Shown: piece by piece, positions 2,200 through 26,120 of the stretch
Layout of the letters: each line of letters begins with the position of its first letter
How positions within the stretch are numbered: position 1 is the first letter of the stretch
Assembly: GCA_019313245.1 (NCBI GenBank)
Contig: JAFDBP010000133.1
Location: forward strand, 1-36,222
Direction: 5' to 3'
DNA: 36,222 nt
DNA from: Deltaproteobacteria bacterium
GTDB lineage: Bacteria; Myxococcota_A; UBA9160; SMWR01
The notes under the pieces: generated by a model
Told to the model about the DNA's origin: nothing
The model's database searches: none
What the model saw: only the letters and a program-made list of their open reading frames with translations
Program-made: the position numbers and the translations under genes

Positions 2200-3570
2200 C
2201 TATTCGATGGCGCCTCCACTCGTCGCACGGCTTCGCTCGATCTGTGAAACCGGTGCCAATCGCACCCCGGGGATCTGCGCAGCGGCGCGCAGGCCGCTGG
2301 TGAGCGCGGACTCGAGGCCCGGACCGACGAGATAGTCGCCCGCAAAAAACAGCCGCGGAGAGCGGTCGATGCGGCGGCCGAAGCGAATCAGACTCGTGAG
2401 GTAACCCGGGTGGAAGATCGGGTGCATCGGGTCCGTACGCGAAATCGCGTAATCCCGGGGCTCCAGCTGTCCGACCGGCGTGCGCGCGAGTTCTCGCTCG
2501 ACGAAGTCGATGATCTCGGAGTCGCCCGCATCCCAGAGTCGTTCGGTGGCGCGGGCGGCGAGTGTGGCGCGCAGCAGACCCGCTCCCGGAGGCGCGAAGC
2601 CCGGCTTGCGATGTTCGACATCCAGCGCTGCGAGGCCCATCGCAGCCGATCGCGGAAAGGATGCCGTATCGAAGGAAAGCACCCGCGGCGCTCTGTCGAA
2701 CATCAGCGATACCGCGATTTCCCGGGTGTAGTGGATCTGCTCGAAGAAACCGCGCTCGCCCGGGGTGAGCTTCGGACACAGCGCCGCCACCTCGCAGCCG
2801 GGCGTGGCGACCACGACCGCGTCGGCCATCACCCATCCCGCCAGACCGTCGCGCCGGTAGTGGACGCGCGCGCCATCGGTTTCGGTTTCGATGCGCTCGA
2901 CCTCGCAGCCGAATCGGACCGGAACCTCGTCGGCCAGGCGGTCGCTGAGAAGACCCACTCCGCCCTTCAGGATCTTTCGGCGAACCCCGCCGAGTTCGGG
3001 CCGCAGCGCCATCCAACCAAAAGCCCGAGAGAGTTGCTCGGGTGCGCAGCCAAAGCGGCGCGCGAAGAAGGGTGCCATGTAGCTGTCGAGACACTCCCGC
3101 CCCACCACGCGATCCAACGCCGACGAGAGGTTTTCGCCGTCGAGTTCCGCAGCTCCCTCCGGCCGTTGGCGCTCGAGTCTCCTCCAGACCAGCGCGAGTT
3201 CGGCGGCCAGGGTCAAGAGGCGCGCCTTCGCTCCCGCGGAAAGCAGCTGCGAGGTGACCCATGCGGCGGGGGAGTCGAAATCCGCGCGGTGGAAGCGACC
3301 GTCGCGCAGAACGACCGTTTCACCGCTCGAAGCTTCGCGCAGGCGATCGCCGATCCCGAGTCTCCAGGCGATGTCGTACAGATTGTGATCTTCGCTGTCG
3401 AAGCGCGCTGGGCCCGATTCCAATGTGAATCCGTTGCGGATGTCGCTTCGGGTGCGGCCGCCCGATCGAATACCCGCCTCGAGCACTTCGACTTCGTGCC
3501 CGGCGCGGCGCAATTCCCACGCGCAGCTGAGACCAGCGGGGCCAGCCCCCACGACGACGACCGAATTCAT
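2200..3570 (-). CDS. FAD-dependent amine oxidase / protoporphyrinogen oxidase-like protein
   Basis: MNSVVVVGAGPAGLSCAWELRRAGHEVEVLEAG dinucleotide-binding motif (GxGxxG), then GGRTRS; C-terminal FAGDYLVGPGLESALTSGLRAA FAD motif. ATG overlaps the stop of the upstream gene (ATGA). Confidence 0.85.
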   Translation of the reverse strand: MNSVVVVGAGPAGLSCAWELRRAGHEVEVLEAGIRSGGRTRSDIRNGFTLESGPARFDSEDHNLYDIAWRLGIGDRLREASSGETVVLRDGRFHRADFDSPAAWVTSQLLSAGAKARLLTLAAELALVWRRLERQRPEGAAELDGENLSSALDRVVGRECLDSYMAPFFARRFGCAPEQLSRAFGWMALRPELGGVRRKILKGGVGLLSDRLADEVPVRFGCEVERIETETDGARVHYRRDGLAGWVMADAVVVATPGCEVAALCPKLTPGERGFFEQIHYTREIAVSLMFDRAPRVLSFDTASFPRSAAMGLAALDVEHRKPGFAPPGAGLLRATLAARATERLWDAGDSEIIDFVERELARTPVGQLEPRDYAISRTDPMHPIFHPGYLTSLIRFGRRIDRSPRLFFAGDYLVGPGLESALTSGLRAAAQIPGVRLAPVSQIERSRATSGGAIE

Positions 3571-3956
3571 TTCGCCACTCCGGTCGACGGTTGGCGTTCG
3601 ATCGCCTCCACCAACACGCTCGGCGGAAACGGCTTGAGCAGAAATGATCCGTCGCTCGCGCGCAATCGGGATCGAAGTGAATCCGAGAGTTCGGCTCCGC
3701 TGGTCAAGATGACCCGGATCTGGGGCTGCTCTGCGGCGAGCACTTCGAGCACGGCGCCCGCGCCGTCGGGGCCGATCGCCGCGTCGAGCACGATGGCGTC
3801 GATCTCCGAGGGTGTCTTCCGCAACACATCGATCGCGGTCTTGCCGTCTGCCGCAGACACGACCGGGTATCCCCGCTTCTCGAGCACGCGGACGAGCACG
3901 CGGAGAAGCTGGGATTCGTCTTCGGCGATGAGTACACGAGGCAAAGCGACCACCAC
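3567..3956 (-). CDS. Single-domain response regulator receiver protein (start uncertain; GTG at 3956 or 3953)
   Basis: LPRVLIAEDESQLLRVLVRVLEKRGYPVV (acidic pocket ED), IVLDAA (phospho-acceptor D), ILTSG, LLKPF. No output domain before the stop. Confidence 0.8.
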   Translation of the reverse strand: MVVALPRVLIAEDESQLLRVLVRVLEKRGYPVVSAADGKTAIDVLRKTPSEIDAIVLDAAIGPDGAGAVLEVLAAEQPQIRVILTSGAELSDSLRSRLRASDGSFLLKPFPPSVLVEAIERQPSTGVAK

Positions 3957-4002
3957 GACGCATTCTAACCCGCGGCCGAGCGGGTGGACCATTCTCGAGG
4001 CG

Positions 4003-4017
4003 GTTCGAGGACGTTTC
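4003..4017. promoter_or_regulatory. Possible SOS-box-like motif GTTC-N7-TTTC upstream of dnaE2
   Basis: gttcgaggacgtttc; one mismatch to the alphaproteobacterial GTTC-N7-GTTC LexA box. Weak, motif-only evidence. Confidence 0.25.
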
Positions 4018-4063
4018 AGCGAGATCCATTTGCCAAAAAGCGAAACTAGAGCGAAAATCAGGC

Positions 4064-7000
4064 GTGTCCTCCTCCGCTGCCGACTACATCGAACTCCGCT
4101 GCCGAAGCGCATTCACGTTCCTCGAGGCGGCTTCCAATCCCGAAGATCTCGCCGATCGCGCGGCGGAGCTCGGCTATCCGGCGCTGGCGCTCGGAGATGC
4201 CGGTGGCGTCTACGGCATTCCCCGCTTTCACCGGGCGGCGAGCGCCGCGGGGCTCCGGGCCATCGTCGGCGCACAGATCTTCGTCGCCGATCCGAACGCG
4301 CCACCCGCGCCCCTGCTCTTGTTGGTCGAGACACAGCGTGGGTATTCGAATTTATGTCGCATCCTGACGGAGAGCCACCGACATGCGGCGAAGGGGTCGA
4401 CCCTCAATCGCTGGGAGGAAATCGAAGAGCGCGCCGAAGGGCTCACCGCTCTGGCGCGCGGCGACGCCTCGCTTCGGATGTCGGTGCTCGACCGCGCCAA
4501 TGCGATCTTCGGGCGCGGTCGACTCTGGGTCGACGTCTCGCGCCATCTGGATCGCGCCACCGAGGCCGCGGGGCGCCGGGCGGCAGCACTCGCAGAGGCC
4601 GCACGCATTCCCGTGGTCGCCACCAACGACGTGCGCCACGCGCGACCCGAGGGGCGCCAACTCTTCGACGCGCTGACCTGCCTGCGCTGGAAGACCTCTC
4701 TGGATCGCGCGGGCCGCCGCCTCGCCATCAACGCCGAGCGACATCTGCGCTCGCCCCGCGAAATGGCGGCGCGTTTCGCCGACCGGCCCGATTGGATCCG
4801 CGCCACCCGCGAGATCTCCGAGCGCTGCGCGTTCGGTCTCGAGAACCTCGGCTATCGATTCCCCCTCTACCCCGTTCCCGTCGGAGAAACCCAGGCCTCC
4901 TACCTTCGACACCTCACCTGGCGCGGCGGACGCGCCCGCTATGGCTCGCCCATCCCTCCGCGCGCTCGCGCGCAGATCGAACGCGAACTCGACCTGATCG
5001 AGAAACTCGGCCTGGACGGCTACTTCCTGATCGTCCACGACATCGTTCAGTTCGCACGCGACCGGAAGATCCTCACCCAGGGGCGCGGCTCTGCGGCCAA
5101 CAGTGCCGTGTGTTACGCGCTCGGCATCACCGCCGTCGATCCGGTGGGGATGGATCTGCTCTTCGAGCGCTTCCTCTCTGAAGAGCGCGGCGAGTGGCCC
5201 GACATCGACCTCGATCTGCCCTCGGGCGAACCGCGCGAGAAGGTCATCCAGTACGTCTTCGATCGATATGGGGCGCACGGCGCCGCGATGACGGCAGTCG
5301 TAATCACCTACCGCACGCGCATGGCCGTGCGCGAAATGGGCAAGGTGCTCGGCGTGGAACCCGACGCCATCGAACGCCTCGCCAGGACGATCGCTCGACT
5401 CGAACACCGCGAGAACCTCGACGAACTCGAGAGTCTGCTCGAGCAGGCGGGCGTCGACCCCAGGTCCCCGCGCATCGCCACGCTGCTCGATCTGGTCGAT
5501 CGCGTGCGCGGGCTGCCGAGGCATCTCGGTCAACACACCGGTGGCGTGGTGATCTCCGCGGGGCGCCTCGATGAGATCGTCCCGATCGAGCCCGCGGCGA
5601 TGGCCGGGCGCCGCGTCGTGCAGTGGGACAAAGAGGATTGTGCGGATCTCGGAATCATCAAGATCGACCTGCTGGGGCTCGGCATGCTCGCAGCCATCGA
5701 AGACACCATCGGGCTCGTCCGCGACCACGAGGGCGTGGCGATCGATCTCGCCCATCTACCCGCGGACGATCTCACCACCTACGAGATGATTCGCCGCGCC
5801 GACACCATCGGTACCTTCCAGATCGAAAGCCGCGCCCAGATGGCGACGCTGCCGCGCATGAGGCCCGCGCGTTTCTACGACCTCGTCGTGGAAGTCGCGA
5901 TCATTCGCCCGGGCCCCATCGTCGGACAGATGGTGAACCCGTATCTCGAGCGCCGCGCGGGACGCGAGCCGGTCAGCTATCCGCACCCGTCCCTGGAACC
6001 GATCCTCGCGCGCACCCTCGGCGTACCGCTGTTTCAAGAGCAACTACTTCGCATCGCGATGGTGGCGGCCGGCTTCAGCGGCGGCGAGGCCGAGGAGTTG
6101 CGCCGTGCAATGGGATTCAAGCGCTCCATCGAACGCATGGACCGCCTCGAATCGCGGCTCCGAAGCGGCATGAGAGAGCGCGGCATCGTCGGCGACGACC
6201 AGGAGGCGATCGTCCGCGGAATCCACTCTTTTGCGCTCTACGGGTTTCCGGAATCCCACGCCGCATCCTTCGCGTTGATCGCCTACGCGTCGGCATTCCT
6301 CAAAGCCCACCATCCGGCCGCATTTCTGGCCGGCCTGCTCAACGCCTACCCGATGGGCTTCTACAACCCGGCCACACTCGTCAAGGACGCGCAGCGGCAC
6401 GGCGTCGAGGTGCGGCCGATCGACGTCGCGCACTCGAATTGGCGCTGCACGCTCGAGGCGCCGCGCCACCCGAAGGCGTCCCCTCCCGTGCGACTGGGTC
6501 TGCGCTTTGCGAGCGGATTGCGCCGAGAGACGGGCAGCGCACTCGAAGTCGCGCGCGGCGCGGCGGCTTTCAGCAGCGTTGCCGATCTCACCCGGCGCGT
6601 GGCATTTCGCCGCGCCGAAATCGACACCCTCGCCGAGCTCGGCGCGCTCGCGAGCATCGACCGCGCCGCGCACAGTCGGCGCGCGGCGCTCTGGCAGGTG
6701 GCCGCGCTCGAACGCAATCCCGATTCGCTCTTCGCGGGCCTGCCTCCCGCCGAGGAAACTTCGCCACTGATCGAAATGTCTGCGCTCGAACAGACGCTCG
6801 CCGACTACCGGCACAGCGGTCTCACCACGGGCCCGCAGATCCTCACCCATCTGCGGCCGACGCTGCGCGCAAGGGGAATCCTGTCCTCCGCCGATCTGAA
6901 GGGTGTGCCCGATGGGCGCCGGGTCAAAACCGCGGGACAGGTCATCGTTCGCCAGCGACCGGGATCCGCCAAGGGGTTTTGCTTTCTGACCCTCGAGGAC

Positions 7001-7280: not shown

Positions 7281-8210
7281 ATGCACAGGTTCGTTGCGGG
7301 CGCGCTCGCGATCAGTTGGATGGCGGCGTCCGCGGCCACTTCCAACGACCTGGCACTCTCCGAGGCAGAAGTCGCCGCCCAGCGCGAACGCCTCGCGCGC
7401 CTCGGCTTCGCGTCGATGCTCGAACGGCAGAAGCGACTGATCCGGGTGAGTTCCGCCATTCGCCTTCACGGCGCGGCGCTCTGCAACGATCAGCTGAGTC
7501 CGGTCACGGGAATCGTGGCGGCCACTTCTGCGGAAATCCCCGAGGCCTATCGCGAGACCGCCTATCGAGATCACGGCGTCGAGGATCTCTTGAAGGTGCT
7601 CTGGATCCTGCCCGACTACCCCGCCGCCGAAGTGGGCTTGCGGTCCGGCGACACCATTCTCGAGATCGACGGCCGCGAGACGCATTCGGCGGCGTCGCTC
7701 GATCGACGCGATCCGGTGGATTCGCAGATCTTCACGGCGCTCAAGATCGAGCGCGACGGCGAAATTCTCGACCTCCTCTTCGAAGCCCGGAACGGCTGCT
7801 TTCGCCCGGCCGTGCTCTCGATGCTCGACAACGTCGATACCCACACGGAAGGTGCGCGCATGGTGGTCTATTCCGGCATGTTGCGCTTCGCGGAATCGGA
7901 CGACGAACTCGCGATCGTGCTCGCGCACGAGCTCGCGCACGAACTGCTCGGTCAGAAGTTGAGTGTCGAGAACGCGGAGTCGGAAGCGGATTACCTGGGC
8001 CTCTACCTCGTCGCGCGCGCGGGTTACGACGTCGCGGTGGCGACCGAATTTGCGCGGCGACTCGCAGCGGAGTTTCCGTTCGCGCTCGAAGAGCGCGCGG
8101 GGCACATCCACCCGTTCTCCGCCGCGCGCTCGATCGCACTGGCCAACACCCTGCGCGAGATCCAGGGAAAACTCGAGCGCGCTGAACCCCTCGAGCCGAG
8201 GACCCGATGA
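7281..8210 (+). CDS. Secreted PDZ domain-containing M48-family metallopeptidase
   Basis: Signal peptide MHRFVAGALAISWMAASAA; PDZ-like 'PAAEVGLRSGDTILEIDGRE'; zinc motif HELAHE plus ESEADYLGLYLVARAGYD. Confidence 0.85.
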   Translation: MHRFVAGALAISWMAASAATSNDLALSEAEVAAQRERLARLGFASMLERQKRLIRVSSAIRLHGAALCNDQLSPVTGIVAATSAEIPEAYRETAYRDHGVEDLLKVLWILPDYPAAEVGLRSGDTILEIDGRETHSAASLDRRDPVDSQIFTALKIERDGEILDLLFEARNGCFRPAVLSMLDNVDTHTEGARMVVYSGMLRFAESDDELAIVLAHELAHELLGQKLSVENAESEADYLGLYLVARAGYDVAVATEFARRLAAEFPFALEERAGHIHPFSAARSIALANTLREIQGKLERAEPLEPRTR

Positions 8211-9178
8211 GATCGACCGCTGCAATTTCTCTGGCTGCGGGCCTGCTCTTTTCGAGCGCGGGTTGCTCGACCCATCCCGCCGTCACGCCGGATCGCGAAC
8301 TCTCGGACGCGGCGCTCCACGAGGAATTCGCCGAGGCTTCCGTGCGCCTCTACGTGCAACGCCAAGCTCGCCTGCTCGCGGTGAACTACGCGATCCGCAC
8401 CGCAGGTGCAGATCTCTGCGGCGATGCCGTCGGCCCGATCCTCGGGATCGCGGCGTGGCGCAGCAATCCGCTCTTCGGGCGAGCGTTCTTCGAAGCCCTC
8501 GAGCGCAGCTACGGGGTCTGGGCCGGGAGCATCGCGGTGGTGGCCGTGCAACCCGGATCGCCGGCGGATCGCGCGGGCATTCGGGTCGGCGACCAGATCC
8601 TGCACGTGGCGGGCGCTGCGGTCCACTCCGACGTCGACGTCTTCGATCGCGCAGCGGCATTCGAGACCGGAGCGATTCCGATCGGCCTGCTGCGCGGAGA
8701 ACGCGAAATCCGCGTCGCCGTCGACCCACTTCGCGCGTGCCGCCCGGAGGCCTTCCTCGAAATCGGCGACCTGATGCTGACCGACCGCGCGCGTGGCGAT
8801 CACTTCTACGTCACCTCGGGTTTCATCCGCTTCGCGAAGACCGACGACGAACTCGCGCTCGTCGTCGCCCACGAACTCGCGCATCGCATCTCGGGCATGC
8901 GGGTGATCCCGGGCCCCCAGGTCGAAGTTCGGGCCGATCGCCTCGGCCTGTATCTGGCCGCGCGCGCCGGCTACGACATCTCGATTGCGCCCGCGTTCTG
9001 GGACCGCGTCGCCGTCGAGCAACCCTGGTCGCTCTCGGACGACGTCGAGCACTACGGCTGGACCCGCGTGCCACCACACGGCTACATGCCGTCGCGCGCG
9101 GCGGCGATCCGAAAGATCGTCGCCGAGATCCAGCGCAAGATCGAAAACGGCAAACCGCTCCAACCCGGGAAGATCTGA
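8207..9178 (+). CDS. PDZ domain-containing M48-family metallopeptidase, lipoprotein; paralogue of the upstream gene
   Basis: Lipobox LLFSSAGC; PDZ-like 'GSPADRAGIRVGDQILHVAG'; HELAH zinc motif and EVRADRLGLYLAARAGYD. Overlaps the previous stop (ATGA). Confidence 0.85.
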   Translation: MRSTAAISLAAGLLFSSAGCSTHPAVTPDRELSDAALHEEFAEASVRLYVQRQARLLAVNYAIRTAGADLCGDAVGPILGIAAWRSNPLFGRAFFEALERSYGVWAGSIAVVAVQPGSPADRAGIRVGDQILHVAGAAVHSDVDVFDRAAAFETGAIPIGLLRGEREIRVAVDPLRACRPEAFLEIGDLMLTDRARGDHFYVTSGFIRFAKTDDELALVVAHELAHRISGMRVIPGPQVEVRADRLGLYLAARAGYDISIAPAFWDRVAVEQPWSLSDDVEHYGWTRVPPHGYMPSRAAAIRKIVAEIQRKIENGKPLQPGKI

Positions 9179-20209: not shown

Positions 20210-21937
20210 ATGCCTACGAGATTCATCGGGTCGTGCGCGACGCGGGCGTCGCTACTGACCCCTGCCGCGCTCGCACTCGCGTCGGTTCTGGGCTGCACGT
20301 CGCCGGGAAGCGCAACTCCCGCGAACGAGAGTGCGGGAACTCCCGTGCGCCTCGTGCTGCAAATCACCGTCGACGGCCTGCGCGGGGATCTTCTGAACCG
20401 CTATGGCGACCGCTTCGGCGAGGGCGGGTTTCGCCATCTGCTGGAAACGGGCGCGGTCTACGCGAACGCCCACTACCAGCACGCCAACACCGAGACGATC
20501 GTCGGTCACTCGACGCTCGCGACGGGCGCCTCGCCCGACCAGCACGGGATGATCGGCAACGTCTGGTTCGATCGCGAAGCCGGCGAACTCGCCTACAACA
20601 TCGAAGACCCGGAGCACCCGATCCTGCCAAGCCGAGAGGTGGCCATGGAAGGGGCGCAGCTCGACCCCTCTCAAAAGCAGTCGCGCACGAAGGGACGGTC
20701 GCCGCGTTCACTGCTCGCCTCGACCTTCGGCGACGAGCTCTCCGTCCACACGGCGGGCCGCGCAAAGGTGTTCGGCGTGTCGGGCAAGGATCGCAGCGCG
20801 GTGGCGATGGCCGGGCACGTGGGCAAGGCCTTCTGGTACGCGACCGACAGCGGCGACATGGTGACCAGCGACTACTACTACGACGCCTATCCGGACTGGG
20901 TGGCCGAGTGGAACGCCCGCCGCCGGGCCGAGTCCCACGCCGGCGGCAGCTGGAGATTGCTCAACGACGCATCGACCTACCTGCTGGCCGCGTCGGACGA
21001 CCGTCCCTACGAGACGGACCTGAAGGGTTACGGACGAGTCTTCCCGCATCCCTTCGGTGAACTCGGCGACCCGCTCTTCTTCACCCGCCTGATCGCGAGC
21101 CCGGTGGGTGACGCGCTCACGCTCGACTTCGCCAAGGCGCTCATCGCTGCCGAACAGCTCGGTCAGGATGCGACCCCCGACTATCTGTCGATTTCATTTT
21201 CTTCGGTGGACGTCGTCAACCACTTCTTCGGGCCGTCCAGTCTAGAGAACGAAGACATCGTGCTGCAGCTCGATCGCACCCTGTCGGATCTGTTTCGGTC
21301 CGTCGACGCGACCGTCGGCCTCGAGCGCACCCTCGTCGTGCTCTCGGCGGATCACGGCACGCCCGAGATGCCGGAAGCCATGGCCGAAGCGGGTCTTCGC
21401 GCCAGCCGCCTGTATCCCGCGGAAGTGGTGGAGCGCGCCAACGCAGCCGCGCGAAGCCGCTTCGGTATCGAGGGCGCCGTTCGATTCTTCTTCCGCCCCT
21501 ATCTGTATCTGAATCGGGAAAAGATCCGAACGTCGGGCGCCGATCCGGACGAAGTCGAGCAGGTAATCGCAGCAGCGCTCACCGATGTGGATGGAATCGC
21601 ACTCGCGGTGGCGCGGAGCGCGCTGCCGACACTGACGGACGACGATCTCGTCGCCCGGATCCGACGCAACACCCACCCCTCACGCTCGGGCGACATCTAC
21701 GTCGCGCCGGAACCCTATTGGTTCCTCTACGAGAAGGGCCCGATCGCCGCCGCGCACGGATCCCCATGGCGCCACGACACCTTCGTGCCGATCATCTTCG
21801 CCGGCCCGGGCATCGCACCGCAGACGATCCACCGCCTCGTTCACCCCACCGACGTCGCGCCGACACTTTCGGGCTACCTCGGCGTGAAACCGCCCTCGTC
21901 TGCTGTGGGTACACCGCTCGAAGAAATCCTGCCGTAA
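20210..21937 (+). CDS. Alkaline phosphatase family protein (PafA-like / type I phosphodiesterase), lipoprotein
   Basis: Lipobox ALASVLGC; LQITVDGLRGDLLNRYGDRFGEGGFRHLLETGAVY; NTETIVGHSTLATGASPDQHGMIGN; LSADHGTPEMP; AAHGSPWRHDTFVPIIFAGPGI. Confidence 0.85.
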   Translation: MPTRFIGSCATRASLLTPAALALASVLGCTSPGSATPANESAGTPVRLVLQITVDGLRGDLLNRYGDRFGEGGFRHLLETGAVYANAHYQHANTETIVGHSTLATGASPDQHGMIGNVWFDREAGELAYNIEDPEHPILPSREVAMEGAQLDPSQKQSRTKGRSPRSLLASTFGDELSVHTAGRAKVFGVSGKDRSAVAMAGHVGKAFWYATDSGDMVTSDYYYDAYPDWVAEWNARRRAESHAGGSWRLLNDASTYLLAASDDRPYETDLKGYGRVFPHPFGELGDPLFFTRLIASPVGDALTLDFAKALIAAEQLGQDATPDYLSISFSSVDVVNHFFGPSSLENEDIVLQLDRTLSDLFRSVDATVGLERTLVVLSADHGTPEMPEAMAEAGLRASRLYPAEVVERANAAARSRFGIEGAVRFFFRPYLYLNREKIRTSGADPDEVEQVIAAALTDVDGIALAVARSALPTLTDDDLVARIRRNTHPSRSGDIYVAPEPYWFLYEKGPIAAAHGSPWRHDTFVPIIFAGPGIAPQTIHRLVHPTDVAPTLSGYLGVKPPSSAVGTPLEEILP

Positions 21938-22135
21938 TTTCGCCCGCATCACTCGATCGAAAACGACGGTGCCCCGCAGCAGTCCGTATTTGGGCAAAAT
22001 GACTCAGCCGCTGTACATCTATGACCAATTGACTCGGCGGCTTCTGCGGCACTAGCCTGCGCGTGCGGTCGCACCGCTTCGTACCGCGCTCACCGCACGA
22101 GATCTCGCGATCGGCGGAATGCCTGCGCGGTGTGC

Positions 22136-22151
22136 TGGCACCACAATTGCA
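22136..22151 (+). promoter_or_regulatory. Candidate sigma-54 (RpoN) -24/-12 promoter
   Basis: cTGGCACC-ACAA-TTGCA; GG-N10-GC spacing exact, one mismatch to TGGCACG-N4-TTGCW; intergenic, 31 nt before the ATG of the MttB-family gene. Confidence 0.75.
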
Positions 22152-22182
22152 CCTGGCGGTCGGGGCAAAGGGAGAATCGATC

Positions 22183-23616
22183 ATGCGCGTACAGTGTCAG
22201 ATCTTGTCCGAGGACGAGAAACAGAGAATCCACACGGAGAGCCTCAAGATCCTCGAACAGATCGGCGTGAAGTTCCTGAGTCAGCGCGCGCTGAAGATCA
22301 TGAAGGACAACGGCGCCAAAGTCGACGACGACACCGGCATTGCGAAGATCTCCGCCGAAATGGTCGAGCAGGCGCTGAAGACCGCCCCGAAATCGTTCGT
22401 GCTGGGCGGCCGCGATCCCGCGCGCAACGTAGAGCTGCCGCGACCGACGGCGGGTTACGTGCTCGATCTGGGCGGCGTGTTTACGCGCGATTTCAAGACC
22501 GGCGAGAGAAGGTACGCCACGCTGCAGGACAACAACGACGCCATGCGGGTCTTCGACGAGATGGCATTGAGCTCCGTGGTGTGGCCCCACTCGATGGCCG
22601 AAGGAGACACGCCGAACTCGAACGCGATCCGCCTGGTCCTCAACTCGTTCATGTACAGCTCCCTGCACGTTCAGGACGAATTCAGCGAGCCGGAGGAGGT
22701 GCCCTACATCTACGAGGCAATGGCGGCGATCCTCGGTAGCGAAGACGCCGTCAAGCAGCGGAAGCTCTACTCTGTGACGTACTGCACGCTGGCACCGCTG
22801 GTACACGAAGGCGGGATGTGTGACGCCTACCTGGACATGATCGAATTCGAGGCGCCGATCTTGATCTATCCGATGCCGTGCACCGGATCGACGGGGCCGT
22901 GCAGCCTGTTTTCGAACATCGCGATGGGCAACGCCGAGGCCCTCTCCTCGCTGGTGCTGTTCCAGATGGCCCATCCGGGCACACCGCTCATCTTCGGCGA
23001 TGCCTCCGGCAGTACCGACTTCGCGAGCGGGGGCTTCCTCGAGGGTTCGCCGGAAATGGTGCTGATGACGGCGGCTCTGGGCGAAATGGCGCGCTTCTAC
23101 GGCCTGCCCAACACGCAACAGGGTTGTCAGACGGATTCCAAGGAACCCGGTCCCCAGGCCGTGATGGAGAAGCTGGTCACCACGCTGCCCCTGGTGCTCA
23201 GCGGCGCGGATCTCGTGCAGGGGCCCGGTTGCCTCGAAACGAGCGGGTGCCTGTGTCTCGAGCAGATCGTCATCGACGAAGAGATCGGCGGCCTGTGCAA
23301 GCGCATCCGGGACGGCATCGACTTCTCCGCCGCGAAGAACCTCTACGACGATGTCGCGCAGATTGGACCGAGCGGTCACTTCCTGATGCAGGACAGCACG
23401 TTGGAAGCTTGTCGGAGCGACGAGTTCTACGCCCCGAAGCTGTTCGACCGCCACACCTTCGAGCGCTGGTCCGAGCTCGGAAGACCGGATACATATTCCA
23501 AGGCCAGAGAACGGGTGGAGGAAATCCTCGCCACGCCGCAGAAGAACCCACTGCCCGATGATGTCATCGGTAAACTCGAAGAGATCATGCGGAAAGCGGA
23601 CGAGGAACTGAACTGA
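22183..23616 (+). CDS. MttB-superfamily (trimethylamine/quaternary amine) methyltransferase, non-pyrrolysine
   Basis: HTESLKILEQIGVKFLSQRALKIMKDNGAKVDD...; GYVLDLGGVFTRDFKTGERRYATLQD; PMPCTGSTGPCSLFSNIAMGNAEALSSLVLFQMAHPGTPLIFG; TDSKEPGPQAVMEK. No in-frame TAG. SD aaggga. Confidence 0.88.
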   Translation: MRVQCQILSEDEKQRIHTESLKILEQIGVKFLSQRALKIMKDNGAKVDDDTGIAKISAEMVEQALKTAPKSFVLGGRDPARNVELPRPTAGYVLDLGGVFTRDFKTGERRYATLQDNNDAMRVFDEMALSSVVWPHSMAEGDTPNSNAIRLVLNSFMYSSLHVQDEFSEPEEVPYIYEAMAAILGSEDAVKQRKLYSVTYCTLAPLVHEGGMCDAYLDMIEFEAPILIYPMPCTGSTGPCSLFSNIAMGNAEALSSLVLFQMAHPGTPLIFGDASGSTDFASGGFLEGSPEMVLMTAALGEMARFYGLPNTQQGCQTDSKEPGPQAVMEKLVTTLPLVLSGADLVQGPGCLETSGCLCLEQIVIDEEIGGLCKRIRDGIDFSAAKNLYDDVAQIGPSGHFLMQDSTLEACRSDEFYAPKLFDRHTFERWSELGRPDTYSKARERVEEILATPQKNPLPDDVIGKLEEIMRKADEELN

Positions 23617-23641
23617 AGCGCAACCAGACAAAGGAAACGCC

Positions 23642-24271
23642 ATGTCGATAGAGGACATCTTCCAATCCATCCTGCAGCTGAAGCGCGGCGAGATCGCGGA
23701 TCTCGTTCAGGCCGAAATCGACGCCAAGACGGATGTCGGCGTCATCCTGGAGCAGGGCCTGATCAACGCCATGGGCGAAGTGGGCAACCAGTTCACCGAG
23801 GGGAAACTCTTCGTCCCCGAGATGCTGCGCGCGGCCGAAACCATGAAGATCGGTCTCGAAGTACTGCGCCCGCTGCTCGTGGAAGCCGACATCAAACCCA
23901 GAGGCACGGTCGTCATCGGCACCGTCGCGGGAGACCTGCACGACATCGGCAAGAATCTGGTCGGGATGATGCTCGAGGGTGCGGGCTTCACCGTCGTCGA
24001 TCTCGGCGTAGACGTGGCCGCGAAGGCATTCCTCGACGCCGCGGGCGAGCACCAGGCGGAACTCGTGGCGATGTCCGCCCTCTTGACCACGACCATGCCG
24101 GTGATGGCGGATTGCATTGGAAGGTTCAAAGAGGCCAACATGAACTCCCGGATCCTGATCGGCGGCGCACCCGTGAACCAGGACTTCGCGATCAAGATCA
24201 GCGCCGATGGCTACAGTTCGGACGCCCCGGGCGCCGTCGAGCTGGCGAAGAAGCTGGTGCCCGCGCAATAG
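23642..24271 (+). CDS. Cobalamin-binding corrinoid protein (MttC/MtbC-like)
   Basis: N-terminal helical domain plus GDLHDIGKNLVGMMLEGAGFTVVDLGVDV (DxHxxG), SALLTTTMPVM, ILIGGAPVNQDFA, YSSDAPGAVELAKKL. Confidence 0.95.
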   Translation: MSIEDIFQSILQLKRGEIADLVQAEIDAKTDVGVILEQGLINAMGEVGNQFTEGKLFVPEMLRAAETMKIGLEVLRPLLVEADIKPRGTVVIGTVAGDLHDIGKNLVGMMLEGAGFTVVDLGVDVAAKAFLDAAGEHQAELVAMSALLTTTMPVMADCIGRFKEANMNSRILIGGAPVNQDFAIKISADGYSSDAPGAVELAKKLVPAQ

Positions 24272-24372
24272 GTGATGAAGTGGCCCTGCCGCCTCGTTTC
24301 CAGCTGAGGTGCGATGCCGGTCACCGCGCGCACAACCTGTCGGAGTGCGGCTGAACGAGCGGGAAGTCAAGG

Positions 24373-25194
24373 GTGAAGAAGAACCGCTGCTCTCTCATGC
24401 TCGCCAAGGCACTGTGCTCATGGTGCCTGCTGTGTGTGGGATGTGCTGCTTACACGCCAACCGCCAGTCTCGAATACGACCCAACACCGATCTCGGTCTC
24501 GGAACCACTAGACGAGACTGTCGCCGTGCTGCCGCTCGAGGAGGCGCGGGGCCCGAAGCTCTACCCCGGACTCCAAGGGCATCTATTCAAAGCCTACATC
24601 CCGCTTCTCCCCTACGTAACCGTTCCCTACGAGCGACTGGATGAATCGCACATCCTCCATCAGAGGAACCTCGGACGCACTACGCTCCCGGCGGAGCATT
24701 TCACATTTGCATTCGCGCAGGAGATCGCGCGCGATCTTCAACACTCCGGCCTGTTTCGGAAAGTGGACTTCGTAGCGAATGAACAGGAGGCGAGCGAGCA
24801 TGACCTCGTCTTGAGGGGAACTCTGCGCTCGACCCAATTCGACATAACCGTTTCATCCTACATGCTCGGAATGCCGGGCGTCTTACTCTGGTTGCTTCCG
24901 ATCCCGCTGGGCAAGAACACGGCGACCGTAACACTTGACCTCAACCTCGAGGACGATTCCGGAGAGACACTCTGGTCGCATTCGTTCTCGGAACGCGCCG
25001 ACAAGCTGTTCACGCTCTACAACTCCGGTGGGGGGTCGACATCCAGCCGATTTCGCATCGAGATCACGCGGTACGGCTCCAATGATTTGGGAATCGATGA
25101 AAAATCCAATTGGGCGTATCATGCGGAAGCTCTTCGGCGTGGCATGAAGGGGGCGAAAGCTTCGATTTCGGAAACGCTTTTGCCCCACCGGTAG
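24373..25194 (+). CDS. Hypothetical lipoprotein
   Basis: GTG start; lipobox LLCVGC; 273 aa with no recognised domain; TVAVLPLEEARG start of mature region. Confidence 0.65.
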   Translation: MKKNRCSLMLAKALCSWCLLCVGCAAYTPTASLEYDPTPISVSEPLDETVAVLPLEEARGPKLYPGLQGHLFKAYIPLLPYVTVPYERLDESHILHQRNLGRTTLPAEHFTFAFAQEIARDLQHSGLFRKVDFVANEQEASEHDLVLRGTLRSTQFDITVSSYMLGMPGVLLWLLPIPLGKNTATVTLDLNLEDDSGETLWSHSFSERADKLFTLYNSGGGSTSSRFRIEITRYGSNDLGIDEKSNWAYHAEALRRGMKGAKASISETLLPHR

Positions 25195-25237
25195 CAGGCT
25201 GACGCAACTCTGAACAAGACAGAGGTTTCAATTAGGA

Positions 25238-25260
25238 CTGGGATCAGTGTGTGATTCCAG
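25238..25260. terminator. Hairpin between convergent genes (possible bidirectional terminator without a clear T-tract)
   Basis: CTGGGATCA-GTGTG-TGATTCCAG, 9-bp stem with one G-U pair, between the lipoprotein and patatin genes. Confidence 0.4.
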
Positions 25261-25289
25261 CCCGAGGGACGCAGTCCGACAATGGTGTG

Positions 25290-26120
25290 TCAGGCGACGG
25301 CATCGAGTGCCTGCTTGATCGAGTCCATCGCGGCCAGCGTGGTTCGCTTGCCCAGCTCGAAGATCTCGCCGTGGTGCCGGGTGTCGAACAGGCCGTAACG
25401 ATTGAGTTCCGGGCAGCGCAGCAACACGTCGCACTCGTGAAACTTCTGCTTCGAAGTAAAGTGCATCCCCACTTCCAGTGCGCGCTCGGAGACAGCGAGT
25501 ACGCCGTCGATGTCCTCGCGATGCACCCTTCGCAGCGGGCTCGCGTAATGCCCCAGAACGACGTCGCAACGGCCGCGCAGCGGCTCGATCGGGAAGTTGT
25601 TGAGCACGCCCCCGTCCACGTACCAGCGCCCATCGATTTCGGTCGGTGTGAAGACCATGGGCATCGAGCACGAAGCCAGGATCGCGGGGATCAGGGGGCC
25701 CGACTCGAAGATCCTGAGCCGCGCGTTGACGATGTCCGTCGCGGCGAGGAAGAGCCGGATCCTCAGCGCTTCGAAGGAATCTTCCGGGAAGTACTCGCGG
25801 AAGCTCGCCACCACCTTGCCGGTGTCCAGGATCCCCGCCTTACGCACGGTGACGGCCGAGAGCCGAAACGGGCTGGCCCTCTGGAAGAACTCGAGCATCG
25901 TCTCGGTCGGGTGGTCGGCGGCCGCCAGCGCGCCCACGATTGCGCCCGAACTCGAGCCCGCGATGAAATCCGGTTCGAGCCCGTGGCTCCGCAGCGCGTC
26001 GATCACTCCCACGTGGGCGATGCCTCTCGAACCACCTCCGGATAGAACCAATCCCAGTGTCGGCCTGGCACTCAACCCGATCGACCCCTCTTCGGCGCCG
26101 GAACGACGCCAGCGCTCCAA
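25290..26120 (-). CDS. Patatin-like phospholipase family protein (RssA-like)
   Basis: LGLVLSGGGSRGIAHVGVIDALRSHGLEPDFIAGSSSGAIVGAL (oxyanion hole and GxSxG); WYVDGGVLNNFPIEPL (DGG). Start codon uncertain. Confidence 0.9.
   Translation of the reverse strand: MERWRRSGAEEGSIGLSARPTLGLVLSGGGSRGIAHVGVIDALRSHGLEPDFIAGSSSGAIVGALAAADHPTETMLEFFQRASPFRLSAVTVRKAGILDTGKVVASFREYFPEDSFEALRIRLFLAATDIVNARLRIFESGPLIPAILASCSMPMVFTPTEIDGRWYVDGGVLNNFPIEPLRGRCDVVLGHYASPLRRVHREDIDGVLAVSERALEVGMHFTSKQKFHECDVLLRCPELNRYGLFDTRHHGEIFELGKRTTLAAMDSIKQALDAVA

Follow-up and report, generated by a model that had tools for sequence, protein, structure and literature searches.

The DNA analysed here (henceforth called the window; 36,222 bp) is contig C133 of genome G000, which comprises 3.88 Mb on 308 contigs and is 84% complete. 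It carries an mttB-family methyltransferase gene of the non-pyrrolysine type (22183–23616 (+), 477 aa; PF06253, E = 2.8e-85), followed after a gap of 25 nt by the gene of its cognate corrinoid protein (23642–24271 (+), 209 aa; PF02607 and PF02310), which is assigned to the same transcription unit. The pair is retained in genomes G001, G003, and G006. The methyltransferase was placed in the MttB superfamily (COG5598/PF06253) by a near-full-length match (profile positions 30–497 of 500), whereas its score against the pyrrolysine MttB model TIGR02369 (354.7 bits) stayed under the cut-off of 525. The gene has no in-frame TAG, and Ser316 stands at or next to the column in which paralogues have TAG (pyrrolysine). 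With the glycine betaine:corrinoid methyltransferase MtgB (PDB 2QNE, 9YCE), the window MttB shares the superfamily, the lack of pyrrolysine, and a partner corrinoid protein; it differs in being only ~30% identical to these structures and in lying on a separate tree branch, outside MtgB, and its corrinoid protein scores under the MtgC cut-offs. Its function may be similar to that of MtgB despite this low identity.

Downstream of the corrinoid protein gene, a stretch of ~1 kb (24272–25289) is followed by a convergent patatin-like gene. The stretch contains an ORF of 273 aa (24373–25194) with no match in Pfam or NCBIfam, and it is missing in G003, where the corresponding gap is 115 bp. Hence, judged by gene order, the transcription unit probably consists of mttB and the corrinoid protein gene alone. 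No riboswitch or other Rfam element was found near the operon.

The predicted sigma-54 promoter site upstream of mttB

The intergenic region between the previous ORF, which ends at 21937, and the mttB start codon (ATG at 22183) contains TGGCACCACAATTGCA at 22136–22151 (+), read directly as TGGCAC-CACAA-TTGCA. Its GG (22137–22138) and GC (22149–22150) are spaced by exactly 10 nt, and compared to TGGCACG-N4-TTGCW there is a single mismatch (C for G at position 7). An earlier note on this DNA had described an intergenic near-consensus sigma-54 site with this spacing and mismatch and a 5′ UTR of about 20 nt with a Shine–Dalgarno (SD) sequence, which was confirmed by reading. The site matches TGGCACN5TTGCW exactly, as no other sequence in the 36-kb window does. 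In scans of selected loci with a sigma-54 position weight matrix (PWM), which is our own approximation of published frequencies and not a fitted model, it scored 16.9 bits, leading the runner-up in the window (10.6 bits) by 6 bits. The chance expectation at this score or above is ~8e-5 per 245 bp of intergenic sequence on one strand, a rough figure that derives from 1 such site in 3 Mb of random sequence with the dinucleotide composition of the window.

By setting the GC at −13/−12, the transcription start site (TSS) is predicted at ~22162, which yields a predicted 5′ UTR of ~21 nt (22162–22182 (+)). The SD sequence aaagggaga (22167–22175) ends 7 nt upstream of the mttB ATG, and the fit of SD and ATG spacing supports the reading as a sigma-54 promoter. 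An in-frame GTG at 22063 was considered as mttB start, which would place the promoter within the gene; this was ruled out, as relatives have 2-nt indels between GTG and ATG. An E. coli-type scan from 21900 to 25300 found no sigma-70-like promoter.

Conservation of the promoter region and the candidate enhancer

The orthologous contigs named here belong to “Deltaproteobacteria bacterium” MAGs. In the two congeners G001 and G003 (91% protein identity), all 16 promoter bases are identical and located at −47 from the same ATG. Across the upstream alignment of the three congeneric genomes (210 columns), 60% of the columns are invariant. An uninterrupted stretch of 18 invariant nt (GCTGGCACCACAATTGCA) makes up the promoter, a length that was reached in 129 of 20,000 column shuffles. 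Just 50% of the spacer 22067–22130 is invariant, and 68% of the mttB third codon positions are; these comparisons rest on three close species, and part of the identity is explained by shared ancestry. Upstream of the orthologues with 67–70% identity (G006, L065, L066, and L067), which come from other genera and families, the sigma-54 site is absent, and sigma-54 control is therefore specific to the clade and genus. Of the −24/−12 conservation that the earlier note had proposed as a check, the invariance of GG/GC and of all 16 bases thus holds in the two congeners, and that in G006 and Desulfobacteraceae does not.

A second conserved block lies at 21998–22032 (+), ~105–140 bp upstream of the −24 box, which is a usual distance for the sites of enhancer-binding proteins (EBPs). 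It bears two ATGAC half-sites (21999–22003 and 22021–22025) that are 22 bp, i.e., two helical turns, apart; the region 21994–22032 contains AATGACTCAGC and ATGACC. In the three genomes, 31 of the 39 columns of this region are invariant vs. 34 of 68 between the block and the promoter. The doubled ATGAC pattern is unique in the genome, with no further copies. The block was annotated as a candidate enhancer (UAS), a plausible guess from its conservation in three genomes. The preceding gene is codirectional in G000 and G003; in G001, the upstream gene is non-homologous, and DNA homology starts only at window position 21993, a few bases before the candidate enhancer. The regulatory region of ~190 bp thus belongs to, and travels with, the mttB operon.

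RpoN, enhancer-binding proteins, and MttB paralogues

RpoN, whose absence from the genome would have spoken against the promoter according to the earlier note, is encoded on C300 of the same genome (PF04552, E = 3.2e-62); the protein is full length (506 aa), with a glutamine-rich N-terminal region and the RpoN box ARRTVTKYRE. The genome holds 18 EBP-domain matches, ~15 of them strong; a GAFTGA-type motif was present in many (pattern search), and most of those examined have response-regulator receiver domains. In agreement with the earlier note, none of the 18 lies in the window, and no EBP gene adjoins mttB at any of the loci inspected (the window, the two congeners, G006, and Desulfobacteraceae). 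RpoN sites, for which the earlier note had suggested a genome scan, were counted by pattern: the exact motif TGGCACN5TTGCW occurs 13 times genome-wide compared to 3 times for a reversed-pattern control, and several of the 13 sites lie 30–90 bp upstream of an ORF. In relatives, TGGCAYN5TTGCW outnumbered its control as well (G001 19/6, G003 13/4, G006 9/0). The enrichment and the sites before ORFs have the appearance of a working sigma-54 regulon.

Two consensus sigma-54 sites precede EBP genes in G000, one 48 bp before the gene start (L005:1501–1549; C56:43694) and one 87 bp before it (L014:617–704; C292:617). The sequence of the C56 site recurs in G003 (C124), near the orthologue of the C56 EBP. 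This suggests that the C56 and C292 EBP genes are sigma-54-driven and possibly autoregulated. Two other EBPs, L020 and L022, are present in G000, G001, and G003 and had no reciprocal best hit in G006 among the matches listed, so that their occurrence parallels the distribution of the promoter, as far as EBP lists that are partial due to MAG gaps can tell. By reading, no copy of the upstream block of the window was found in the DNA upstream of L020. With partial EBP lists and an L020 upstream region lacking the block, neither was named as the mttB EBP from co-occurrence.

G000 encodes at least 16 MttB paralogues with mostly unknown substrates. Among the paralogues scanned upstream in G000, G001, G003, and G006, a sister clade is the only other group with a promoter-proximal sigma-54 site (G000 C185:5418–6875 (−), G001 C139, and G006 C29; two genera). 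In 3/3 genomes, this site reads TGGCA(C/T)C(T/C)GAATTGCT and stands at −61 from a GTG start. The upstream repeat, TGGGGCG / CGCCCC, differs from the window block; its arms are 42 bp apart in every genome, and the spacing between repeat and promoter changes by ≤15 bp in G006. A search for further members of the clade across 284 genomes of the phylum turned them up in G000 and G001 alone. Among the paralogues examined outside the two groups, none had a convincing promoter-proximal sigma-54 site; three gave weaker matches (11–13 bits, 176–394 bp upstream), with conservation demonstrated for none.

The tree unites both sigma-54-bearing groups in one clade (support 0.90), to which neither MtgB nor the pyrrolysine MttBs belong. 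The same clade also holds members without the site (G006 C121 and C298, L065, and L066); promoter type therefore follows phylogeny only partly, and gains or losses occurred. The C185 locus (L068:1–12552) contains three MttB paralogues (5418–6875 (−), 3227–4654 (−), and 7298–8707 (+)) together with a corrinoid protein, a DAO-family oxidoreductase, a sarcosine-oxidase/GCV_T-like protein, and a possible multihaem cytochrome; judged by gene content, it is likely an island for the demethylation of methylated amines, and the second sigma-54 promoter lies within it. Three other MttB paralogues of G000 (L069:3806–5215, L070:3779–5176, and L071:1574–2983, on C258, C283, and C94, respectively) each have one in-frame TAG, and the three codons align in one column, as expected for pyrrolysine. 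Neither PylS nor PylB was clearly recognized in G000, an incomplete genome, and the congener G001 encodes a strong partial PylB (C152, E = 8e-76).

Alternative readings, regulation, and known systems

We consider it highly probable that 22136–22151 is a working sigma-54 (RpoN) promoter of the mttB–corrinoid protein operon, opened by an EBP that is encoded in trans and acts from an upstream site. That a sigma-54 promoter drives this pair, as the earlier note had proposed, is well supported by the motif, the conservation of 16 bases, and the presence of RpoN; the site is the only strong match in the window, conserved in three congeneric genomes, and its motif is enriched genome-wide. A chance match, with the operon read from a promoter of another type or by transcription continuing from the phosphatase gene ahead of it, appears improbable. 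The housekeeping promoters of the lineage are poorly known and could be missed by an E. coli-type scan, and the codirectional preceding gene in G000 and G003 would permit read-through; yet G001 retains the promoter region behind a non-homologous upstream gene, and a chance match, at a probability of ~1e-4, would also have to account for the conservation of all 16 bases at a fixed distance and for independent sites on the sister clade. Sigma-54 holoenzyme binds DNA without activation, and “silent” sites are known in other bacteria, so the site might mainly repress or pause transcription and mask another promoter. We regard this as very improbable given the ideal intergenic position with an SD sequence directly downstream, the conserved upstream block at enhancer distance, and the lack of another promoter in the scan from 21900 to 25300.

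Nitrogen control of the NtrC type is compatible with a sigma-54 promoter and competes only with control by a substrate. Methylated amines are nitrogen sources, and the receiver domains in most EBPs examined would suit such control; it is nevertheless unlikely, as by reading the conserved upstream block lacks an NtrC-like GCACC-N5-GGTGC palindrome, the repeat upstream of the sister operon is a different one, and no nitrogen-regulation genes were seen nearby. The earlier note had left nitrogen- or substrate-responsive control by an EBP side by side; nitrogen found no support, and substrate-responsive control via a trans-encoded EBP is likely. Control in trans follows from established sigma-54 biology and the EBPs found in the genome, and the substrate is the better guess than nitrogen by analogy with Sporomusa (PMC12456013). 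We infer the activity of the promoter, the enhancer role of the block, the acting EBP, and the signal as follows: RNA polymerase with sigma-54 would bind the −24/−12 box as a closed complex, and an EBP encoded elsewhere in the genome would bind upstream, most likely at 21998–22032, and spend ATP to open the promoter at ~22162. The operon would thus stay off until the signal arrives, probably a methylated-amine or betaine-like substrate.

That sigma-54 controls genes of the mttB family has been published for Clostridia, including Sporomusa (PMC12316311, PMC12456013). A survey of sigma-54 regulons from 2025 counts MttB (COG5598) among the groups regulated by sigma-54 and reports this enrichment for Clostridia (PMC12316311); MttB-family methyltransferase genes are the predicted sigma-54 target in both cases, whereas the present genes belong to a deltaproteobacterial lineage and to non-pyrrolysine MttB clades. 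In Sporomusa sphaeroides KIAC, SigL (RpoN) promoters (TGGCA-N6-TTGC) with mapped TSSs occur in a 58-kb betaine cluster, which includes betaine and TMA methyltransferases and is transcribed specifically on betaine (PMC12456013). There, the sigma-54 regulators are encoded within the cluster, whereas here the operon has two genes, the EBP would be encoded elsewhere, and the promoter and its TSS are predicted from sequence. The present case adds a predicted instance from a little-studied deltaproteobacterial lineage, with conservation at the genus level, and takes the published connection of sigma-54 with MttB beyond the clostridia.

A wider reading, which we hold tentatively and with slightly more doubt than confidence, concerns the non-pyrrolysine MttB enzymes of this deltaproteobacterial family. 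Two sister clades of them would have gained or retained sigma-54 promoters whose enhancers differ, and in each clade a separate EBP would respond to a methylated substrate of its own, whereas paralogues outside both clades would not be under sigma-54. If true, sigma-54 would govern a methylotrophy regulon with two branches in a lineage other than the clostridia. A promoter class confined to a pair of related clades that each have a candidate enhancer of their own offers a way to connect orphan enzymes with their regulators and substrates.
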